From IMG/VR virus record IMGVR_UViG_3300035698_020423, positions 1 to 29,352 of that record: a DNA stretch of 29,352 bases; one strand, given 5' to 3'. How positions within the stretch are numbered: position 1 is the first letter of the stretch; every line of letters begins with the position of its first letter. The notes below the pieces were generated by a model, which had not been told where the DNA came from, did no database searches, and was given only the letters and a program-made list of their open reading frames with translations. Of this stretch, positions 2,269 through 28,337 are shown in pieces. This DNA is from a virus. A program made the position numbers and the translations under genes.

Positions 2269-2298
2269 ATCGGTAATAATGATATGAGGTGTGATATT

Positions 2299-3015
2299 AT
2301 GGCTAGAAGGAAATTAGATCTAAGAACGATAGACATTCCAGGGGACATACTACAACAACTCTATATTACCGAGCGATTGACTATAAAGCAAATTGCGGAT
2401 AAATTGGGTTATTCTGTTACCCCAGTTTGGCGGTCATTAAAGCGACATGGTATTAAATTACAACCTTCCGGAGGACAATACACTTATCAAGATAAGGGCA
2501 TCACTAAAGCAGAATTAAGCCGATTATATCTAAAGAAGGCATTACCAATAAGTAAAATAGCAGAAAAATTCAATTGTCACCGCCACACTGTAACAAGAGC
2601 ATTAAAACATTTTGATATTCCAATACGCTCACAATCCGAAGTAAATAAATTGTCAGCACAAAAGAGGGTATGGGCTACAAATGGACATGGAAGAAATTGG
2701 CAAGGTGGGAAGTCGCATAATACAACGAATGGTTATATTACTATATGGATGCCTAGTCATCACCGAGCTAGTAAACAAGGTTATGTTTATGAGCACATTT
2801 TGGTATGGGAAAAAGCTTACGGAAAGAGAGTCCCTAAAGGTTGGGTAATACACCATCTTAACGGTAATAAAACTGATAACCGCCCTGAGAATTTAGCAGC
2901 GATGTCAAGAGCTGCTCACAGGGATTTACCTAAACCATATAAAGAACGTATCCGGCAATTAGAAGCTGAAATAAAGAAACTACAACAGCTTAAATTATCA
3001 ATTCCTTATAGTTAG
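2299..3015 (+). CDS. Free-standing HNH homing endonuclease with HTH repeats
   Basis: A 238-residue protein. The ATG at 2299 is preferred over 2284 because AGGTG lies 8 nt upstream of it and the upstream ATG lacks an SD. The first half has two helix-turn-helix-like repeats (LTIKQIADKLGYSVTPVW and LPISKIAEKFNCHRHTVTRA), probably for DNA recognition. The C-terminal half is an HNH nuclease (GWVIHHLNGNKTDNRPENL, then a conserved AAH), with the HH pair and the N of N-x-x-E-N-L visible and no zinc cysteines. This is the arrangement of phage homing endonucleases. It sits between two structural genes with its own promoter, as expected of a mobile endonuclease gene. No intron core was recognised around it. 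Confidence 0.88.
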   Translation: MARRKLDLRTIDIPGDILQQLYITERLTIKQIADKLGYSVTPVWRSLKRHGIKLQPSGGQYTYQDKGITKAELSRLYLKKALPISKIAEKFNCHRHTVTRALKHFDIPIRSQSEVNKLSAQKRVWATNGHGRNWQGGKSHNTTNGYITIWMPSHHRASKQGYVYEHILVWEKAYGKRVPKGWVIHHLNGNKTDNRPENLAAMSRAAHRDLPKPYKERIRQLEAEIKKLQQLKLSIPYS

Positions 3016-4223: not shown

Positions 4224-4490
4224 ATGTCGGATGATTGTAAACTGGATATGATGGACCAAATGGACTTTGATAGAAAATTAGAGGAGATGGGAGATAACCC
4301 TGTGGCGTTAATAAAGTTTTTAGCTAGACAGCAATTCGCTACCGGGAAGGTCTTGGTTGCGCATGCTGGAAGGATTAAAGCCGTGGAGCGTAAGAATAAT
4401 AAAGTGATGGCTATTATCGGTGGAGCCGGAGCAATCATTGGATCTGTCGTAATTGCCCTTATTGATTATTTTACCAAAAACCCGAGTTAA
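4224..4490 (+). CDS. XhlA/holin-like small membrane protein
   Basis: An 88-residue protein. ATG 4224 is chosen because AGGGG (4211-4215) is 8 nt upstream, whereas ATG 4218 is only 2 nt away. A charged helical N-terminus (MDFDRKLEEMGDNPVALIKF) is followed by basic residues (RIKAVERKNNK) and one hydrophobic C-terminal segment (VMAIIGGAGAIIGSVVIALI). This topology matches XhlA-type holin-associated proteins. Its position, last before a terminator and after tail genes, fits a lysis role. No endolysin is visible here; it may lie outside the window. Confidence 0.5.
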   Translation: MSDDCKLDMMDQMDFDRKLEEMGDNPVALIKFLARQQFATGKVLVAHAGRIKAVERKNNKVMAIIGGAGAIIGSVVIALIDYFTKNPS

Positions 4491-4526
4491 TTGTAATTGC
4501 CTAATATAATAATGTGTCGAACAAAG

Positions 4527-4563
4527 ACCCCTTTCCCTTCCCCGGGAGAGGGGTTCTATTTTT
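4527..4563 (+). terminator. Rho-independent terminator closing the late operon
   Basis: ACCCCT (4527-4532) pairs with AGGGGT (4549-4554), and an inner TCCC (4534-4537) pairs with GGGA (4544-4547), followed by the T-rich run TTCTATTTTT. It directly follows the holin-like gene and precedes the early promoter at 4781. Confidence 0.8.
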
Positions 4564-4780
4564 GTGTCCAAATTCAAGCCCACGGTAAATGGGTTTACGG
4601 TAATTCTCCAACGCCAAGGCTATTGCCGCTTGCCATCTTATACACCCAAGGTGTAATCCCTCGGCTTTTGCTTTCAAGAGGGCGTGTTGCCCATCTGAGG
4701 ACGTGCCTATCTCAAGAATGAGCCAAAGGTGTCAATATCTAATTATTTTTGGAATAAGCCGTAAAATAGATGTTAAAGAG
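4564..4780 (+). other. Gene-poor spacer with several small hairpins
   Basis: About 280 bases between the terminator and the next gene without a convincing coding frame. One frame (4497-4721) has no SD, runs through the terminator and has no recognisable protein features. Small hairpins are visible: GTAAA/TTTAC near 4583-4596, TACACC-CAA-GGTGTA near 4640-4655, and GGGC/GCCC near 4679-4692. It may hold a structured RNA or a DNA site, but I cannot name it. Confidence 0.3.
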
Positions 4781-4809
4781 TTGACATTAGTATTATTGTC
4801 TGTTACTAT
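4781..4809 (+). promoter_or_regulatory. Early promoter, sigma-70 type
   Basis: TTGACA at 4781-4786, a 17-nt spacer and TACTAT at 4804-4809, with TGT just before the -10 (extended -10 form). It drives the 4845 gene and probably the small-gene cluster downstream. Confidence 0.85.
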
Positions 4810-4844
4810 GTTACTGTAGGTTAAAGATTAAGAAGGAGTTAGAA

Positions 4845-5075
4845 ATGAACAAGGTGAGAAGAAACGAACTGGAGACTATACTGGGAAAGCTTGAAGACTT
4901 GAAAGGGGAAATGGAGATACTGAATGAGCAAGAGGAAGAATATATGGAGAATATGCCGGAATCACTGCAAGAAAGTGAAAGACATGAAAGGGCCGAGGAT
5001 GCAGTATCTAACATGGACGATGCTATAAGCAACCTAGATGATGCAATCGAGTCAATAACACTAGCAAGCGAATAA
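4845..5075 (+). CDS. Small acidic coiled-coil phage protein
   Basis: A 76-residue, strongly acidic helical protein behind an AAGGAG SD, first gene after the 4781 promoter. The pattern MNKxRRxELETILGKLEDLK...NMPESLQESERHERAEDAVSNMDDAISNLDDAIESI matches a very common family of small early phage proteins of unknown role (PESLQxSER motif followed by repeated xNLDDAIxxI heptads). No catalytic motif is seen. It probably oligomerises as a helical bundle. Confidence 0.75.
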   Translation: MNKVRRNELETILGKLEDLKGEMEILNEQEEEYMENMPESLQESERHERAEDAVSNMDDAISNLDDAIESITLASE

Positions 5076-5102
5076 GAATAAATCAAAAGGAGAATATCAG
5101 AA

Positions 5103-5291
5103 ATGAAACTTACTAAAAATGAACAGGCTAAAAATGCACTAGACTGGATAGGAGCGAGCCAGGGATTAACCTCTAACGAAGTCATCGATCGTAACCAACT
5201 CCGGGAGCAGATTCCAAATCACATCGCTGATGATGAGGATGTAGAAGCGATCGCCACAAAGATAGAGCTGATTATCCGGGAGATGTGTTAA
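5103..5291 (+). CDS. Small hypothetical early protein
   Basis: A 62-residue protein behind AAAAGGAG. It is mostly helical and charged (MKLTKNEQAKNALDWIGAS...DDEDVEAIATKIELIIREMC), with no domain I recognise. Its stop TAA overlaps the next ATG by one base (TAATG), so the two are translationally coupled. Confidence 0.65.
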   Translation: MKLTKNEQAKNALDWIGASQGLTSNEVIDRNQLREQIPNHIADDEDVEAIATKIELIIREMC

Positions 5292-5443
5292 TGGATAAGG
5301 GATTTGAGAAGATGGTATCAACAATAATCCGGGTAAGCCCGGAAGTGGCGGGCCATATCTCGGCTAATGGTAAATATGGCGACAGCGCGGATGCTGTTCT
5401 CCGGAGACTGCTCGGGCTTCCAGGAAAGAAGATTAGGGGTTAG
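5291..5443 (+). CDS. Small ribbon-helix-helix-like protein
   Basis: A 50-residue frame read directly from the sequence. It starts at the TAATG overlap with the previous gene and ends in TAG at 5441-5443. The core TIIRVSPEVAGHISANGKYG followed by DSADAVLRRLLGLP is a strand-helix-helix pattern like short antitoxin or RHH DNA-binding proteins (xIRVSxEVxxxIxxxGKYGDTxDDVLRRLLGLP). It could be a small DNA-binding regulator of the early region. The match is by pattern only. Confidence 0.65.
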   Translation: MDKGFEKMVSTIIRVSPEVAGHISANGKYGDSADAVLRRLLGLPGKKIRG

Positions 5444-6289: not shown

Positions 6290-7765
6290 ATGAAATGTAA
6301 AAAGCATGGGATTGAATTCGAGGATACCGGAGGGTGTCCTCAGTGTAATCAAGAAGACGCGGAGATAAATTCTCCGGATAACATTGGCAAGAGGATTGCC
6401 GCTGCCGAGGCGGCCGCAGATAGGCTTCCGGGGTTACTCGAAGCATTAGCCGATACCTCAGATCAGGAAGTAGAGAATTCTATTGTTAAGGTCCAATACT
6501 TCTCGGAGAAAACCGGGGAAATAAGCACAAGGGAATATACCTATTACTCAGAGAATCCCCTTAATGTGGGTGACGTTGTTATGGTTCCGGTGAGGGATAC
6601 TACTACTAAAGCAAAAGTAAGTGCTATTGATGTGCCCGAGTCGGAGATAGATGCCTTCAAAGATAAGGTGAAGATTATCCCGGCAACGAGGCGAGTGGAA
6701 GAGGTTGTCAGGGAAACACTAAATGGCCCAAATACTGAAGATGACAAACGAAAACTCGCTGCCCATGAAGCGGAATTGTCTAGGTCAATGGATGTTTCTG
6801 CCGCCTTTTCTTCAGTAGAGCCTTTCGAGTCTTTTAATCCTGATCAGGTGGCAGAGAATATAAAAAGGGAATTAAACAGCACCGGCGGTGAAGGAGTCAG
6901 TCTAGATAATGAGCCGCTTCCTTTGGTTGGACTGACCGAAGCCTTGGCTAAACCTGCGAATGATTATGGGGACGAACTGGCCAATGACTTAAAGCGCTGT
7001 TACATTGCGGCCAAGGCCGGCGCCGATGTGACTGTGGTTAATTCATCGGTGCAACAAGACCCCCTTTCCGATGAAGAAGAGGCTCGGATAATGGCCGAAG
7101 GGATGCCATCAGAAGTTGTTATGACCAGCCTGTCGATATATGAACGTGATGTAGAAGTTATCTCTCTAATAGAACAGGCCCAAGGGTTTCTGCGTTATGC
7201 TGAGGATCGGGTGGTTAGCGATGTTACTACAGTTAAGAGCGCCACTACGGACTTAGTTTTAATTGCCAACACAAAGAAAGCCATTGAATCTAAGCGGAAG
7301 GAATATCTCGACCCGGTTAATTCCCAAGCTGCTGATATACGGAATTTTTTCAAGCAACTCCAGGACCCTATCAAGGACGCTGATTCCATTACGCGGAAGA
7401 AGGTCTTGTCCTATAACGCCGAGATTGATAGGCAGCGCGCTGAGGCGGAACGCATCGAGGATGCGGCTTATAAGCTGGCCCATGAGCAGGATGTATTAAC
7501 AGGGGAACATACCGTTGCTTTGGATCCAGTTGATAAACCAGAGCCTACTCCCAAGAAGGTTCAAACTGACTTTGGGAGTTCTAGTAAGTCGGGGACGTGG
7601 AAGTATGAGGTAGTGGACTTTGCTCAGGTTCCAGATGATTGGAAGGTTATCGATTCATCGGGTTTAGCTGCCAGGGCTAAGAGCCATAAAGATACTAAAC
7701 CGGTTCCGGGAATTAGGTTCTATTTCGAACCCGGGCTTGTCGTTAGAAGCAGTTATATTAAATAA
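6290..7765 (+). CDS. Recombination/replication-associated phage protein
   Basis: A 491-residue protein behind AAAAAGGAGC. It opens with a CxxH/CxxC zinc module (CKKHGIEFEDTGGCPQC). Residues about 65-110 (VKVQYFSEKTGEISTREYTY then VGDVVMVPVRD) look like the PriA-type beta domain found in several phage proteins. Residues about 285-400 form a long helical section (LIEQAQGFLRYAEDRVVSDV, then KKAIESKRKEYLDPVNSQAA) like the coiled-coil proteins encoded beside RecT/SSB genes. The C-terminus has VVDFAQVPDDWKVIDSSGL and VPGIRFYFEP, also known from that group. It is followed by a small protein and an SSB-like gene, which supports a recombination role. The biochemical activity is not known to me. Confidence 0.55.
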   Translation: MKCKKHGIEFEDTGGCPQCNQEDAEINSPDNIGKRIAAAEAAADRLPGLLEALADTSDQEVENSIVKVQYFSEKTGEISTREYTYYSENPLNVGDVVMVPVRDTTTKAKVSAIDVPESEIDAFKDKVKIIPATRRVEEVVRETLNGPNTEDDKRKLAAHEAELSRSMDVSAAFSSVEPFESFNPDQVAENIKRELNSTGGEGVSLDNEPLPLVGLTEALAKPANDYGDELANDLKRCYIAAKAGADVTVVNSSVQQDPLSDEEEARIMAEGMPSEVVMTSLSIYERDVEVISLIEQAQGFLRYAEDRVVSDVTTVKSATTDLVLIANTKKAIESKRKEYLDPVNSQAADIRNFFKQLQDPIKDADSITRKKVLSYNAEIDRQRAEAERIEDAAYKLAHEQDVLTGEHTVALDPVDKPEPTPKKVQTDFGSSSKSGTWKYEVVDFAQVPDDWKVIDSSGLAARAKSHKDTKPVPGIRFYFEPGLVVRSSYIK

Positions 7766-7784
7766 AAGGTTGGGGTGAGTTTTA

Positions 7785-8060
7785 ATGGCTGAACTAATAT
7801 TTACAGAGGAAGAAAAAAAGGCCTCAACTTGGGGCGAATTAGAAGATGAATCACTTGGTAAGGTAATTAAGTCTATAATGTTTCGCATTAAACGATTCAG
7901 TGAAGAACGGGAGAAGTTGTATTTTTTATCTGCGGCCATCCTACTTTGTTCTTCAATCGCTAAATCAAACGCTGATAAAGCTACCTTTACAGTCAAAGGC
8001 CTTAAAGTCACAGGTAATGATTTTGGCAACTGGAAAGTAACAATTAAAAAAATCAAATAA
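7785..8060 (+). CDS. Hypothetical early protein
   Basis: A 91-residue protein between the recombination-associated gene and the SSB-like gene. The SD is GGGGTGAG. It begins with an acidic helix (LIFTEEEKKASTWGELEDES), has a moderately hydrophobic middle (KLYFLSAAILLCSSIAKSNA) that is too weak for a firm membrane call, and ends in a basic beta-like stretch (GNWKVTIKKIK). The family is not recognised. Its place suggests an accessory of DNA metabolism. Confidence 0.5.
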   Translation: MAELIFTEEEKKASTWGELEDESLGKVIKSIMFRIKRFSEEREKLYFLSAAILLCSSIAKSNADKATFTVKGLKVTGNDFGNWKVTIKKIK

Positions 8061-8083
8061 AAATAAAAAAGGAGCGACAGTAA

Positions 8084-8860
8084 ATGCAAATAACAGTTAA
8101 ATCATTAAGGGTTATCAAGGAAGGTTTTCAGAGAGATGGCACCACTCCATATAAGTGGTGTTCTGTAATGTCCGAGGATGGAAGTGAGAAAGGAACCGAA
8201 TACACGACATTCGATAAAAGTGTGCTGGACCTTGGGCCCGGTTCTATTATTGATATCGGGGAGATGAGCGGAGATAAACCTAATCTGCAAATCGTAGAGG
8301 GGAAGCTAAAATTCAAAAAGGTGGTTGCTATTATTCTGGGAGCTCCTGCCACTCCAGCTCCTGCCGCCACCGCTCCGGTTCCTACCAGTAATTCCCCGGA
8401 CATGACGAAGGAAGATTGGGAGAATAAACAGCTCATCGAGCGCGCAAGCTACGAAGCTCAAACTGCTTACAAAGGAATCATTACTCTTGCGCAAGTATTC
8501 GTTGAGAAGGATTTTGACCCTCGAGGCGAGAAGTCTTTCATTAAAGAGGAATTCACTCTTGCTATGGAATGGGCCCGGAAGCGGCTTAATTCTACCTTGG
8601 GTGAAGTTCTGTCAGGTATGCCACATTTAGCCAGACCAGAACCAGAGGGCAATCAGAAACCAGAGGACAGTGGTGAAGCTGAAGAACATGAACCATTCCG
8701 GCATATGGGGGATCTGTTAGCCGCATGTCTTAAAAGAAATATAACCAGGGCCGAGGCTCTCCAAAGGTTGGGAGTGAAAGAAGGGGATTCTATTGCCCAC
8801 TTAGAGCTGAATGAGGCTTGGGAGACAATCATAAAAGTAGAAGAGGAGCTTCCATTTTAA
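8084..8860 (+). CDS. SSB-like OB-fold protein with acidic C-terminal tip
   Basis: A 258-residue protein behind AAAAAAGGAGC. The N-terminal ~85 residues (MQITVKSLRVIKEGFQ... VVAIILG) form a short beta barrel-like pattern. A Pro/Ala-rich linker (APATPAPAATAPVPT) and a helical section follow (residues about 105-180). The protein ends in KVEEELPF, which resembles the acidic DDDLPF-type tip by which SSB proteins recruit partner enzymes. A phage single-strand-binding role in replication and recombination is inferred from this architecture and the neighbouring genes. The OB fold itself needs structural confirmation. Confidence 0.5.
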   Translation: MQITVKSLRVIKEGFQRDGTTPYKWCSVMSEDGSEKGTEYTTFDKSVLDLGPGSIIDIGEMSGDKPNLQIVEGKLKFKKVVAIILGAPATPAPAATAPVPTSNSPDMTKEDWENKQLIERASYEAQTAYKGIITLAQVFVEKDFDPRGEKSFIKEEFTLAMEWARKRLNSTLGEVLSGMPHLARPEPEGNQKPEDSGEAEEHEPFRHMGDLLAACLKRNITRAEALQRLGVKEGDSIAHLELNEAWETIIKVEEELPF

Positions 8861-9670: not shown

Positions 9671-10153
9671 ATGGCATTTAAGAATAATTTGAACGGAAAA
9701 AGGTTTGGTAGATTACTCGTTGTTTCCGATTCCGGTGAACGTAGGGATGGGTGTGTTATGTGGGTTTGTCATTGTGATTGTGGAAATGTGGCTATAGTAA
9801 GGAGTAGCTCTTTGACAAGTGGAGCCACTGTATCCTGTGGTTGTTACCTTAAGGAACGTCGCGCTGATAAGATGGGAGAGAAGAATATTAATTGGAAGGG
9901 CGATAATGCTGGTCGAATTGCTCAACATGCTTGGATACGAAGGCGAAAACCAAAGCCTGCTTTATGTGTTAGGTGTGAGAAGCGGAAACCTTTTGACTTA
10001 GCGAATATTTCAGGTGACTACAAAAGAGATGTCGATGACTATGAGTGGCTGTGCCGAAGGTGTCACATGAAAGATGATAAGCGGATAGAAAGAAGGCAAA
10101 AGAATGGACAATATGAAAAGCATCCGGAGAGGAGGAATAAAGATGGGGAATGA
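9671..10153 (+). CDS. HNH homing endonuclease with zinc-finger DNA-binding N-terminus
   Basis: A 160-residue protein; ATG 9671 is 7 nt after GGAGG. The upstream in-frame ATG at 9623 lies in the -35 box and is rejected. Residues 1-65 hold the well-known homing-endonuclease module NLNGKRFGRLLVV...WVCHCDCGN...LTSGATVSCGCY, with cysteines for zinc. After a linker (KNINWKGDNAGRI) come ALCVRCEKRKPFDLANISG and DVDDYEWLCRRCHMKDDKR, an HNH-like CxxC...CxxCH core with Asn and Asp residues between. It has its own promoter and overlaps the next small gene by 11 nt, as though inserted between replication genes. Confidence 0.82.
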   Translation: MAFKNNLNGKRFGRLLVVSDSGERRDGCVMWVCHCDCGNVAIVRSSSLTSGATVSCGCYLKERRADKMGEKNINWKGDNAGRIAQHAWIRRRKPKPALCVRCEKRKPFDLANISGDYKRDVDDYEWLCRRCHMKDDKRIERRQKNGQYEKHPERRNKDGE

Positions 10154-10340
10154 ACGGAGGAACATGGCTAAGTTAAGGAAGCTATTACGCAATAGGGGGA
10201 TTAATAAAAGGCGCATTCTGGTCCTACCAAGGAATGATAAAGAGGAATCTTTACTTGATATATGTAGTAAGGAAAGCGGTGGGTGCGATAGCTGCAAGGA
10301 TTTAGTGGAATGCCGAAGGTTATTTGATAGCGTTTGCTAA
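10143..10340 (+). CDS. Small cysteine-rich protein
   Basis: A 65-residue protein. ATG 10143 is preferred because GGAGG (10131-10135) is 7 nt upstream. It has a basic first half (RRNMAKLRKLLRNRGINKRR) and a C-terminal cluster C-x7-C-x2-C-x5-C ending in C (DICSKESGGCDSCKDLVECR), which may bind a metal. The SD is inside the end of the HNH gene, so the HNH message may also carry it. Function unknown. Confidence 0.6.
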   Translation: MGNERRNMAKLRKLLRNRGINKRRILVLPRNDKEESLLDICSKESGGCDSCKDLVECRRLFDSVC

Positions 10341-10367
10341 TGGTTCGCTCAATAAAAGTTCAAGGAC

Positions 10368-10396
10368 TTGACATATTATTTATAAAAATGTAGCAT
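10368..10396 (+). promoter_or_regulatory. Promoter of the replication initiator operon
   Basis: TTGACA at 10368-10373, a 17-nt spacer and TAGCAT at 10391-10396. The -10 is weaker than in the other promoters (4 of 6). It lies in the 83-nt gap before the 10424 gene. Confidence 0.65.
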
Positions 10397-10423
10397 GTTA
10401 TACATAGTTTTAAGGAGCGTAGA

Positions 10424-11380
10424 ATGGCAAAGAAGGACCAATTATTATTTGACGAACATCCTCTCGTAATAAATCCGCAGTTAGCCAAGATTATTGGATT
10501 AAACGAAGCGATTGTTCTGCAGCAGGTCCATTACTGGGTAAAGCTCAACGAGAGGGCCGGCAAGAACTTAAAAGAGGATTACACCTGGACCTATAACACA
10601 TTAAAGGAATGGCAAGAGCAGTTTCCGTTCTGGTCAGCCATGACGATCCGTCGGACCATATCATCCCTGGAGAAGTCCGGTTATCTTATTAGCACTAATC
10701 TCAATAAACGGAAATCCGACAAGACGAAGTGGTATCGAGTCAGCCTTGACTTTATCTCATCAGTGAACAGTCCATGTGTTCAAAATGAACAGTCGGTGGG
10801 TGTTCAAGATGAACAGTCCACATGTTCAAATAGAGCAGTCCAGGTGTCCAATTTGGACAGAGCGTTACCAGAGACTAACTCAGAGACTAACTTACCAAAG
10901 ACTAACTTAGTAAAGAGTGAAGGGATGAACCCTTCCCCTATTTCACCTGTTGATATTTGCTTTAAAGCTATGCATATGTTTTACGGTTACCCTGATAAGA
11001 TGAAACAGGATCCAATACCTAGTTATGGGAAGGAAGGGAAAGCTATTAAAAAAATGCTGGCGCGTGGTTTTTCCTTAGAGCAGATACTTGTTTGCTGGAC
11101 CGAGAAGGTTAAGCAGCGCGATAAATTTGTATCCATGGTTTGGGTTAATGAGGATATCGCTGGCGCTCCGGCCCCAGCTCTTGTTAAACAAGTTCAGGTT
11201 GTGGATAACTTTCATTATTTTAATACAGCTCTTATCCGGAGAATTGAAAAGGAAAAAGGAAAAAGCCTTGACGGTAATGAGCGGCAGCGTATTGCGGATT
11301 GGATTAGGGAGAAGTCCAGGGAAGGTTGTGGGATGAGTGAGATATTAGAAGGGAATCCATTCGAGGGGGTGGAAGTATGA
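10424..11380 (+). CDS. Phage replication initiator/replisome organiser, winged-helix
   Basis: A 318-residue protein behind TTTTAAGGAGC. The N-terminal ~110 residues match the phage replication-protein winged helix: IGLNEAIVLQQVHYWVKLNE, then TYNTLKEWQEQFPFWSAMTI, RRTISSLEKSGYLIS and DKTKWYRVSLDF. A Thr/Asn-rich linker (ETNSETNLPKTNLVK) and a helical C-terminal domain (about 175-318, with KAIKKMLARGFSLEQILVCW) follow, as in DnaD-like initiators. It probably binds the phage origin and loads the host helicase. The region 10760-10920, encoding the polar linker, has several near-repeats of GTTCAA..GAACAG that could include origin iterons. Confidence 0.75.
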   Translation: MAKKDQLLFDEHPLVINPQLAKIIGLNEAIVLQQVHYWVKLNERAGKNLKEDYTWTYNTLKEWQEQFPFWSAMTIRRTISSLEKSGYLISTNLNKRKSDKTKWYRVSLDFISSVNSPCVQNEQSVGVQDEQSTCSNRAVQVSNLDRALPETNSETNLPKTNLVKSEGMNPSPISPVDICFKAMHMFYGYPDKMKQDPIPSYGKEGKAIKKMLARGFSLEQILVCWTEKVKQRDKFVSMVWVNEDIAGAPAPALVKQVQVVDNFHYFNTALIRRIEKEKGKSLDGNERQRIADWIREKSREGCGMSEILEGNPFEGVEV

Positions 11381-24467: not shown

Positions 24468-25778
24468 ATGTGTCCAGCTTATGGTTCTTATCCAATCGCT
24501 GACGTAAAAGACGCCGGCGAAGAAATATCCTCGACCTACGAAGGTCGCCACATAACTCTATTAGAGAGTGATTTAATTCACCCTTCCCATACTGATGGGT
24601 TTGTAAATAAGGGTGACCCGGTTGTCGCGGCAACTGGAACCCCGGCTCCTGTCGGGGTAGCGCTTAAGAGCGCTTCCGCAGCCACAGACAGGATTGCTAT
24701 TGATACCGAGGGTATCTGGGTCCTTGATGTAGTTGCAGAGAATGACGACGGCAACGAAGCAGTGGCCGGTGGTGATCAGCTTTATATCAATATCACGACT
24801 GCTGTTATCTCGAAAATTAGCAACTCAGTGACACAGGTTCCGTTCGGTTATGCTCTTGGTATAGTGGCAGCCGGTGAGACCAATACCATCGCTGTTAAGG
24901 TTCACTTTGACCAACCGCTTACTGGCGGGATAGACGCGAAAGGCGTTGACCATGTCCAAGGAACTGCGGAGGATCCCATTGCCTGGGGAGTTGACGGAAG
25001 CCATATTAAATCAAATGTGTTTACCGTTGGTGTCCTGACTGACTATATTAACTATCAGCGAATTCACATGCTAACCACGGACGACATTACTGCCGGCGGT
25101 GTTTATAACATCTATTCACGGCAGGATATTAAGCACGATATTCAAAACATGGTTGGTATTCACGCCCTTGGATATGTTATTCCAGACACTCCGGCAGCTC
25201 TGGCCGTGAATCAGTTACTTGGTATTAGTGGGCAGGTGTATGTCAACAATCCTGGCTTTACCACAACCATTGGAGACCAGATTTCAGCCGGTTTCTTTAC
25301 GATGAATCAGTCGCTTACTTCTGCCATAACAGGGACCTTCCCTGCAGAGAACGGTTGGATCAACGGCGTATTCGTTTATATGAACGGCATCGAGCACGAC
25401 AATGGCGGAAGGACCGCAGGTGTGCATGTTGTTCAAGGTGGCGGTGTTACTTCATTTCCTGATTATGGTATCTATATCCTACAGGAGTCCGAGAACGCAT
25501 TAGCTGCTATTAAGATTGAATCCAAAGCGATAGATATGTTTGGTATAGAATTTGAATGCGCTCTTGGTTTTGGTTATGTAGCGATGATTCGTTACTCCGG
25601 TGGCGCAACTGCTGCCAACTGTGAATATTTCCTGCAATTTGATAATGCCGCAGGAGCAGAGGGCAACACTATGGTTCTGGAAGATGAGACCAACAACGAT
25701 GCTGATGCTGACTTTGCCATTCGTGTAAGGTTAGCCGGTGATGCTGTTGATCGTGTTATCCGACTCTATGAAGCATAA
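24468..25778 (+). CDS. Capsid cement (DUF2190-like) fusion protein
   Basis: A 436-residue protein behind a strong AGGAGG (24455-24460). Residues about 45-150 match the DUF2190 capsid cement/decoration fold: NKGDPVVAATGTPAPVGVAL, ATDRIAIDTEGIWVLDVVAE, GGDQLYI, then VPFGYALGIVAAGETNTIAV and KVHFD. The rest (about 160-436) is a beta-rich domain with no family I recognise (GVDHVQGTAEDPIAWGVDGS, TAGVHVVQGGGVTSF). Ordinary cement proteins are about 100-150 residues, so this is a large fusion. It lies before the major capsid gene and probably decorates or fibres the capsid. Confidence 0.7.
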   Translation: MCPAYGSYPIADVKDAGEEISSTYEGRHITLLESDLIHPSHTDGFVNKGDPVVAATGTPAPVGVALKSASAATDRIAIDTEGIWVLDVVAENDDGNEAVAGGDQLYINITTAVISKISNSVTQVPFGYALGIVAAGETNTIAVKVHFDQPLTGGIDAKGVDHVQGTAEDPIAWGVDGSHIKSNVFTVGVLTDYINYQRIHMLTTDDITAGGVYNIYSRQDIKHDIQNMVGIHALGYVIPDTPAALAVNQLLGISGQVYVNNPGFTTTIGDQISAGFFTMNQSLTSAITGTFPAENGWINGVFVYMNGIEHDNGGRTAGVHVVQGGGVTSFPDYGIYILQESENALAAIKIESKAIDMFGIEFECALGFGYVAMIRYSGGATAANCEYFLQFDNAAGAEGNTMVLEDETNNDADADFAIRVRLAGDAVDRVIRLYEA

Positions 25779-26188: not shown

Positions 26189-26212
26189 AATAACAGAGGA
26201 GGACTAAATCCC

Positions 26213-26664
26213 ATGGAACTTAAGGAAACATTAAAAGAAATCACCAAAGGATGGGAACAATACGCCGTCCTTAATGGATCCCGGCGACCCGATGATTGGG
26301 AGATGAGACTGGCGGAAGCCAATAAACTGATCTACAATCTTGACGGTTTGCCATCCCATCGTTGGGAATACCTAGTTAAGGAAGCCCTGACGACCTCGGA
26401 CTTCCCCTATTTATTTGGGGACACACTTGACCGGCAGCTCCTGGTTAACTATAAAGCTGCGCCGGCAGTATGGAAGGCATTTACCAAAATATCGACAAAC
26501 CGCGACTTCAAACAGGCGAGCCGACACCAGATGTTTGGTGGAGACAATTACCTTGATGAGGTTGGGGAGAAGGGCGAGTATCAAGCCAGCCCTCGAACTG
26601 AGGCTGAATACAATATTCAGTTGAAGAAATATGGCCGTCAATTCGATATCTCCTGGGAAGCCAT
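26213..26664 (+). CDS. Major capsid protein, exon 1 of 2
   Basis: Starts at ATG 26213 behind AGAGGAGGAC and codes 150 residues plus two bases of the next codon. Without splicing the frame stops at 26675-26677 after EAINLN. The sequence KKYGRQFDISWEAI is the classic phage major head motif that normally continues xNDDL, which is what exon 2 supplies. The joined gene (26213-26664 + 27609-28299) is 1143 nt and encodes 380 residues, a normal length for a gpT/HK97-fold capsid protein. The splice site follows GCCAT, whose last T pairs with G26677 in the intron guide sequence. Confidence 0.88.
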
Positions 26665-26931
26665 TAATTTAAACTAGTGGCATAGTGAAGGAAACTTACT
26701 ATGAAAAACGCTGTGAATTCGGTGAAAAACTTAATAAAAGTCAATACCGAGCCAAGCCTGGTAGAAAACTACCTTGAAGGTGTAACGACTAGGGTTGAAC
26801 CTAAAGCGAAAGCTATGGTGATAATTACCCACTCAATAGAGAGTAATCTTATTGAGAAGCGCAGCGCACCCTTCGCGGGTGATGATATAGTCTGGTCTGC
26901 ATGGAGACATGCAGAGATAGGCAGAAATGAC

Positions 26932-27540
26932 CTATCTATTTTTGGAGAGTTCAACTTTAACATGGCAAGAACGGCAATAAGAAATCAGGTTACTAAGGTG
27001 GTTAGCAGATTCCCAATCACCATTAAACGAAACATAGGGGCGAACATGATGAACATCAAGTCTCTGGCTTATCTGGGCCTCTGTGAGTCCGCAAAGCTGG
27101 CAAGCGTGATTATCTCTCTTTCTAGCTTTCGCCGATTGTTGGCCCCAGTTCTGTCCTTTATCTCGTTTGATGTCCCCTTTGTTTCTCCAGTGATTAGGGC
27201 TTCTTCTAACAGCAGCCGAACCCCAAATCTGGCATTCTTTAGAACAATACTTACGAGGGAATTCAGTTCTCTTGTGAGAAAATGTCTTACCACAATAAGG
27301 ACACACCTTCGTAATCTCACCAATGTATCGAGGGTTATTCTTGCCAGAATTGACCTTGCTGCGAAGCTTGGCAAAACATTCACGACTGCAAGCCTTTTTA
27401 GCCAGAGGGTGCTGGGGCATGGATTGACCACAGATAACGCAAGTTTTAAAGGTTAGTCTTGATATGCTATAGCATTTTCTAGAACAGTATTTGCCGTTCT
27501 TATTGGGGAGTTGCTTACCACAAATCAAGCAAATTCTCAT
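26932..27540 (-). CDS. HNH homing endonuclease encoded antisense inside the intron
   Basis: A 202-residue protein on the strand opposite the intron. It has three N-terminal zinc-finger-like cysteine modules (CLICGKQL...CSRKC, CVICGQSM...CSREC, CPYCGKTF...CSKEC) and a C-terminal HNH core: CQLCGLTEAQ, LDVHHVRPY (HH), NHLSNLISYCRSCH. It is a plausible site-specific nuclease that spreads the intron. Its promoter (27547-27575) places the start at about the ATG, so the message would have no leader; no SD fits. Its stop lies inside a 3' hairpin of the intron. Intron endonucleases are normally encoded on the sense strand. Confidence 0.88.
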   Translation of the reverse strand: MRICLICGKQLPNKNGKYCSRKCYSISRLTFKTCVICGQSMPQHPLAKKACSRECFAKLRSKVNSGKNNPRYIGEITKVCPYCGKTFSHKRTEFPRKYCSKECQIWGSAAVRRSPNHWRNKGDIKRDKGQNWGQQSAKARKRDNHACQLCGLTEAQISQRLDVHHVRPYVSFNGDWESANHLSNLISYCRSCHVKVELSKNR

Positions 27541-27546
27541 ATTTAT

Positions 27547-27575
27547 ATTATAGTATAGTTGGACTCATTAGTCAA
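27547..27575 (-). promoter_or_regulatory. Minus-strand promoter inside the intron
   Basis: Read on the minus strand: TTGACT (27575-27570), a 17-nt spacer and TATAAT (27552-27547). Six bases separate the -10 from the ATG at 27540. It overlaps a small hairpin (TTG-ACT/AGTCAA) near the intron 3' end. Confidence 0.8.
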
Positions 27576-27608
27576 TTAACAAACTACTCCAAAAGTATAA
27601 CAATAACG

Positions 27609-28299
27609 AGTCAATGATGACCTGGGAGCCCTGAGAGATACTCCTGCGCGATTTGCTTCGGCGGCAACAAGGACAGAGCATCGATTGGTTACAGCTCAGT
27701 ATTGTTATAATAACGTATTGGCAACAGCCGGTCGTGGCAACTTAACAGTCAACCCGCTTACAATTGCTAACTTGGAGACTGGTATACAATGGTTTGCAGG
27801 TCGGACCGATCCTCTTGGCGAGCCTATTCCTACCAGGCCAAAATATTTAGTAGTGGTGCCAGGGCAGGAAATGACAGCTCGGGCGATTCTAACATCGGCA
27901 AGCAAGATGGGCCTAGCTGGCGCGACAACGATTGCCGGCGCTCCTGATGTTTGGGTGCCTACCACGAATGTATTATCCCAAATGGGGCTCGAGTTAATCG
28001 TTGATCCAGTTGCGGCCATACTTAACGTAGCGGCAGCGCATCCTTTGACTGCTGCAGCCGGTTGGTATTTATTCACCGACCCGAAGGAACTGGCAGTTCT
28101 GGAAGCCGCACATCTTCGCGGTCATGAGAGACCGGAAATCGCCATGAAGGCAAGCGACAAAGTAACCGTTGGCGGAGCAGCCATCGACCCAATGTCAGGC
28201 GATTTTGCCACAGACAACATATTCTACAGGGTCCGTTTACCCTTCGGTGTTACTACTCTCGATTGGAGAGGATTCTATTTCGGAGGTTACCTGGACTAA
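27609..28299 (+). CDS. Major capsid protein, exon 2 of 2
   Basis: Begins with the third base of the split codon (AT|A) and continues VNDDLGALRDTPARFASAAT, the motif expected after exon 1. It then encodes YLVVVPGQEMTARAIL, DVWVPTTNVL and the usual C-terminal capsid strands, ending FGVTTLDWRGFYFGGYLD. It forms the P-domain and shell part of the capsid subunit. A frame starting at ATG 27685 would lack the conserved first part, so the start there is not real. Confidence 0.88.
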
Positions 28300-28302
28300 T
28301 TT

Positions 28303-28337
28303 CGGGTATAACTGGACTTTTAGTCCGTATTAATACC
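28303..28337 (+). repeat. Hairpin after the capsid gene
   Basis: GGTAT/ATACC (28305-28309/28333-28337) encloses GGACT-TTT-AGTCC (28314-28326). It lies 5 nt after the capsid stop and has no T-run. It might stabilise or process the capsid message. The remaining bases to 28406 show nothing else. Confidence 0.5.

Follow-up and report, generated by a model that had tools for sequence, protein, structure and literature searches.

An HNH endonuclease gene antisense to its group I intron in the major capsid gene of an uncultured virus

Results

Organisation of the interrupted capsid gene

The DNA analysed here, referred to as the window, is a 29,352-base stretch representing an uncultured virus record. 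Its major capsid gene lies on the plus strand in two parts, separated by a group I intron which carries an HNH endonuclease gene on the opposite strand. The features of the locus are listed below in order of position.

26213..26664, plus strand: 5' exon of the major capsid gene (PF25209, 2.2e-13; 79% identity to the intronless L006 capsid)
26660..26681, plus strand: P1 (GCCAUUA/UAGUGGC), with the U.G wobble at the 5' splice site (Rfam alignment and fold)
26665..27608, plus strand: group I intron, 944 nt, with the omega G at 27608 (RF00028, 80.4 bits, E 3.6e-19)
26701..27456, plus strand: overlapping sense ORF, 251 aa, running through ribozyme P3-P9
26787-26791/26888-26892, plus strand: P7 (Rfam alignment)
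26860-26866, plus strand: 3' strand of P3 (Rfam alignment and fold)
26867-26881, plus strand: P8 (Rfam alignment and fold)
26897-26914, plus strand: P9 (fold)
26915-26921/26931-26937, plus strand: P9.1, with loop CAGAAAUGA (fold; LittleE intron sequence)
26932..27540, minus strand: HNH endonuclease gene, 202 aa, ATG start (PF01844 and PHROG 1271)
27541..27608, plus strand: A+T-rich intron tail, 68 nt, 25% GC, from the HNH start to the 3' splice site, holding the predicted promoter
27547..27575, minus strand: sigma-70-like promoter, TTGACT-17-TATAAT (11/12), ending 6 nt before the HNH ATG
27609..28299, plus strand: 3' exon of the major capsid gene (PF25209, 4.6e-10; 82% identity to L006)

Both halves of the capsid gene matched Phage_capsid_4 (PF25209), and excision of 26665-27608 joins the exons in frame to give an uninterrupted capsid ORF of 380 aa, which is 81% identical to the intronless L006 capsid over the full protein. 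Four IMG/VR relatives (L006-L009) carry the same capsid gene with no intron at the insertion point. Upstream of the capsid gene, a 436-aa ORF (24468-25778, plus strand) matched nothing in PHROG, and nothing in Pfam above the cut-off.

The intron exceeds the RF00028 gathering score of 50 bits, and its conserved P3-P8 core, P7 and P1 are all present. The end of exon 1 was set at the U of the P1 U.G pair (the last base of GCCAU) because an in-frame splice results, and G27608 was taken as the last intron base. The locus therefore combines a U.G pair at the 5' splice site, a terminal omega G, exons that join in frame and homologues lacking the intron. The core folded more stably than shuffled sequences (z = -5.35), while the tail (27541..27608) was no more structured than its shuffles. 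A P7.1/P7.2-type insertion between the 5' strand of P7 and the 3' strand of P3 suggests placement in subgroup IA, and the intron is predicted from its sequence to be self-splicing. Along the plus strand the order is core, P9, P9.1, antisense gene, 68-nt tail and 3' splice site.

The antisense gene encodes an HNH endonuclease

The initial annotation had described a minus-strand ORF for 202 residues at 26932-27540, which is correct to the base, and had named its product an HNH endonuclease. Homology searches bore this out, with a match to PF01844 at 9.5e-8 (32.5 bits against a curated cut-off of 21.4) and to PHROG 1271 at 2.4e-25 over residues 1-199. N-terminal CxxC...CxxxC zinc-finger pairs precede a C-terminal HNH domain at residues 147-195. 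In an alignment with seven relatives, H164-H165, N184, H193 and the Cys pairs were invariant, and all of the Cys and His residues invariant across those relatives are retained in the 202-aa protein. A sequence match to the phage HNH protein 5h0m was obtained at 0.0007; the structure comparison, made with a low-confidence model (pLDDT 66.6) that was too poor for the purpose, gave no match at E <= 0.001.

That the gene runs antisense to both the intron and the capsid gene, as had also been proposed, is confirmed by the plus-strand positions of the RF00028 match and of both PF25209 halves. The overlapping plus-strand ORF at 26701-27456 matched neither PHROG nor, above the cut-off, any Pfam family; it was rejected as a real gene and judged a non-coding shadow. 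The gene had further been said to overlap the last hairpins of the intron. This holds for the last core hairpin, P9.1, whose 3' arm (26931-26937) contains the HNH stop codon, and for that hairpin only.

Relatives of the HNH protein in sequenced phages are distant, the best being about 36% identical across most of the length, and were found in haloarchaeal viruses, in Enterococcus phage Sw5 and as inserts in mycobacteriophage methylases. No close relatives were found in bacterial and archaeal genome contigs. One relative, gp39 of Haloferax tailed virus 1 (L024 1249-2127), is encoded opposite to every gene that flanks it, adjoins the gene for the tape measure C-terminus and is annotated solely as a zinc-finger protein. 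In the mycobacteriophages, genes annotated as DNA methyltransferase (for example L313 2501-2839) contain an internal match to the HNH protein, and this match is apparently the out-of-frame ShiLan HNH (PMC11855218). Codon usage of the HNH gene is unlike that of the other window genes, which is uninformative as proof of coding and also fits a recent acquisition.

Expression signals on the minus strand

The promoter-like site at 27547..27575 had a probability of 0.0028 for a stretch of such composition, and only four sites of equal quality, itself included, occur in the entire window. At a threshold of 9/12, three promoter matches were found against 2.8 expected in a 2.1-kb region, and consensus matches alone are no proof of a promoter. 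From its position, transcription is predicted to start at or next to the HNH ATG. No Shine-Dalgarno site was found for the HNH gene, and a leaderless mRNA is therefore the natural reading; together these sequence signals suggest that the gene has a separate, leaderless transcript. The 68-nt tail precedes the HNH start and would be missing from any transcript begun at the predicted promoter. A search of 26200-28320 revealed no terminator on the minus strand and, with the promoter-like site inside the intron, antisense RNA could thus span the core and exon 1, so that complementarity to the capsid transcript is possible.

A second HNH gene, encoding HNH_3 and helix-turn-helix domains (PF13392, 1.4e-17), is located at 2284-3015 on the plus strand, outside the detected introns. 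The same TTGACT-17-TATAAT lies just upstream of it, at 2240-2268, and is among the window's four sites of that quality. We also considered autorepression of the I-TevI kind, in which the promoter resembles the homing site, as the -35 region of the antisense gene and the capsid junction share TAGTCAAT. This was rejected, since 17% of shuffled sequences and 37% of stretches drawn at random from the window matched as well or better.

Nuclease orientation in viral group I introns

The orientation of intron nucleases was surveyed at 293 loci from IMG/VR pattern scans for the 3' strand of P7. Among 50 survey records tested with Rfam, RF00028 was matched by 46 (E <= 0.001), and 35 reached its gathering threshold. 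Within 1.3 kb of a core, iterated phmmer identified 128 nuclease-like ORFs in sense and nine in antisense orientation, or 119 sense versus eight antisense clusters; within 400 nt there were 102 sense versus six antisense distinct clusters (about 6% antisense), all of these counts being approximate because ORFs were matched automatically. Antisense placement is therefore a minority layout, in agreement with the initial annotation, which had called it unusual.

The antisense layout recurs with HNH, LAGLIDADG and GIY-YIG nucleases. Pfam identified an antisense HNH gene in a capsid gene (L019), an HNH_3 gene (L038) and a LAGLIDADG_3 gene (L079); similarity and motif identified LAGLIDADG genes in L242 and, in a capsid gene, L281/L303, and a GIY-YIG gene in L255. 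Two more probable cases occur in L261, where location within an intron is unsure. Among the group I introns of phages, antisense nuclease genes thus form a class that is small but recurs. The P9.1 loop CAGAAAUGA was present in one of the six antisense introns of the survey versus two of 108, too few cases to indicate enrichment, and promoter scores showed no clear difference between antisense and sense nuclease genes, the window and L261 aside.

Several of these records have further features. The two L261 ORFs (reverse complement, 7225-8133 and 9799-10707) are different LAGLIDADG-like sequences in the vicinity of several weak matches to group I introns, and the first has a perfect TTGACA-17-TATAAT upstream. 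In L038, a 99-kb virus record, seven matches to group I introns are clustered within about 5 kb; one of them contains the antisense HNH_3 gene and others lie near sense HNH genes. In L079, the final codons of the antisense LAGLIDADG gene (4482-5330, minus strand) traverse the P7 region of the ribozyme. A relative of this nuclease with 40% identity is present in the cultured Flavobacterium phage Fpv1 (L315), where its gene opposes the flanking genes and overlies a motif resembling P7; ThiF follows downstream, as it does in L079. Rfam gave no score for the Fpv1 intron, which is thus considered only a probable antisense case. The position near ThiF is apparently conserved between the IMG/VR virus (L079 4482-5330) and cultured Flavobacterium phages (L315 2004-2753).

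Discussion

Comparison with known systems

The antisense layout is not new, having been published for the cultured mycobacteriophage LittleE and being known in slime-mould rDNA introns. The words antisense, opposite and orientation are absent from a review of bacterial group I introns (PMC3984707). LittleE (JF937101) has a group I intron in capsid gene gp13, with gene 14 on the bottom strand (Pope et al. 2013, PMC3706429). As in the window, the intron interrupts the major capsid gene, the nuclease gene lies 3' of the ribozyme core, within the intron and opposite to the strand of ribozyme and host gene, its stop codon falls in P9.1, and the P9.1 loop CAGAAAUGA is identical; the tail to the 3' splice site is 57 nt in LittleE and 68 nt in the window. 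In contrast, gp14 is LAGLIDADG-like rather than HNH, the capsid protein and the insertion site are different, and the host is a mycobacterium. Splicing of the LittleE intron was demonstrated by RT-PCR and capsid N-terminal sequencing, and the spliced capsid protein is present in virions; the authors presume that splicing is very efficient (PMC3706429). The LittleE case shows that an antisense gene need not stop the capsid intron from splicing.

In Didymium, the nuclear rDNA group I introns Dir.S956-2 and Dsq.L2066 carry antisense His-Cys homing endonuclease genes (PMC9548176), which like the window gene oppose the ribozyme strand (within P9 in Dsq.L2066). A separate promoter was proposed for the nuclease there, antisense interference was raised as a problem, and two polymerases were proposed to separate the transcripts (PMC9548176). 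These introns differ from that of the window in residing in eukaryotic rDNA, in belonging to group IE (Dsq.L2066) and in encoding a His-Cys nuclease with a spliceosomal intron. The T4 nucleases I-TevI, I-TevII and I-TevIII likewise belong to mobile group I introns in phage genes, and an internal promoter times the nuclease apart from the host gene (PMC2988022); unlike the window gene, however, they are encoded on the sense strand, with middle and late promoters and autorepression via an operator resembling the homing site. A group I-type intron of phage PVP-SE1 also encodes an HNH nuclease (gp14, annotated as similar to I-HmuI), though in sense orientation. The ShiLan-domain HNH of mycobacteriophage methylases, for which leaderless initiation has been discussed (PMC11855218), is apparently what the antisense HNH protein matches, at about 32% identity, within genes annotated only as methylase, but there the HNH frame lies on the same strand, out of frame, and no intron is involved.

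A proposed role for the antisense gene

Five features are directly established at the locus: the intron, the in-frame joining of its exons, the HNH gene on the antisense strand, the existence of an intronless allele and the promoter-like site. Together they probably mark the group I intron of the capsid gene as mobile, its antisense HNH homing endonuclease being expressed from a host-type promoter of its own, uncoupled from late capsid transcription. The late plus-strand transcript would self-splice to give capsid mRNA, and no endonuclease could be obtained from that strand. As sense transcripts of the capsid gene cannot give the HNH nuclease, a minus-strand transcript of its own is needed; this mRNA would arise from the host-type sigma-70 promoter in the final 68 nt of the intron and would probably be leaderless. 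Capsid alleles that lack the intron, for example in L006-L009, would then be cut or nicked by the endonuclease, and the intron would spread as these were repaired from the copy that contains it. A separate promoter would uncouple the nuclease from late capsid transcription, with early or low-level expression most likely. Host-type promoters are usually active early in phage infection, and the nuclease may thus precede late transcription across the site. Self-splicing, use of the promoter, leaderless translation, cleavage of capsid alleles and the timing of expression are what we infer here.

The HNH gene could instead be a passenger, a free-standing element with its own promoter that inserted into the intron in whichever orientation chance gave, fails to recognise the capsid site and confers no mobility. 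In favour of this, most of the nearest relatives are genes that stand alone, in haloarchaeal viruses and other phages, the second HNH gene of the window has a promoter of the same kind, and the codon usage differs from the remainder of the window. However, the gene fits exactly between P9.1 and the tail, the slot occupied by the antisense LAGLIDADG gene of LittleE, and orientation across introns is far from arbitrary, at 102 sense against six antisense clusters, so that we regard a passenger as unlikely. Loss of expression altogether, with the gene persisting as a silent relic devoid of a translation signal, would agree with the missing Shine-Dalgarno site and the atypical codon usage, but the 202-aa frame is intact, the conserved Cys and His residues and the HNH motif have all been kept, and a promoter-like site stands exactly ahead of the ATG; of the alternatives this is the least probable. 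It is also very improbable that the arrangement is a regulatory device in which, as the initial annotation suggested, the HNH mRNA and the capsid pre-mRNA interfere, keeping the nuclease off late in infection or modulating splicing. The transcripts would overlap, and antisense RNA unchecked by a terminator in 26200-28320 could reach the core and exon 1, yet LittleE yields spliced capsid mRNA despite its antisense gene, and the T4 intron nucleases are timed otherwise, by promoters, RNA hairpins and autorepression (PMC2988022).

The mobile intron with a separately expressed antisense nuclease accordingly remains our preferred reading. A broader proposal, which we offer tentatively and consider rather doubtful, is that antisense placement is a selected strategy in phage introns of late genes, whereby a host-type promoter within the intron would give an early nuclease and exclude it in time from capsid expression. 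If true, this would account for the involvement of three nuclease families and for stop codons located inside the ribozyme core. For rDNA and phage introns alike, the literature has posed the question of how a nuclease can be expressed inside a highly transcribed gene without harm to that gene. The window locus and the recurrent cases, about 6% and drawn from three nuclease families, widen the single case of LittleE into a class, and suggest a possible answer in the form of a separate antisense promoter within the intron.
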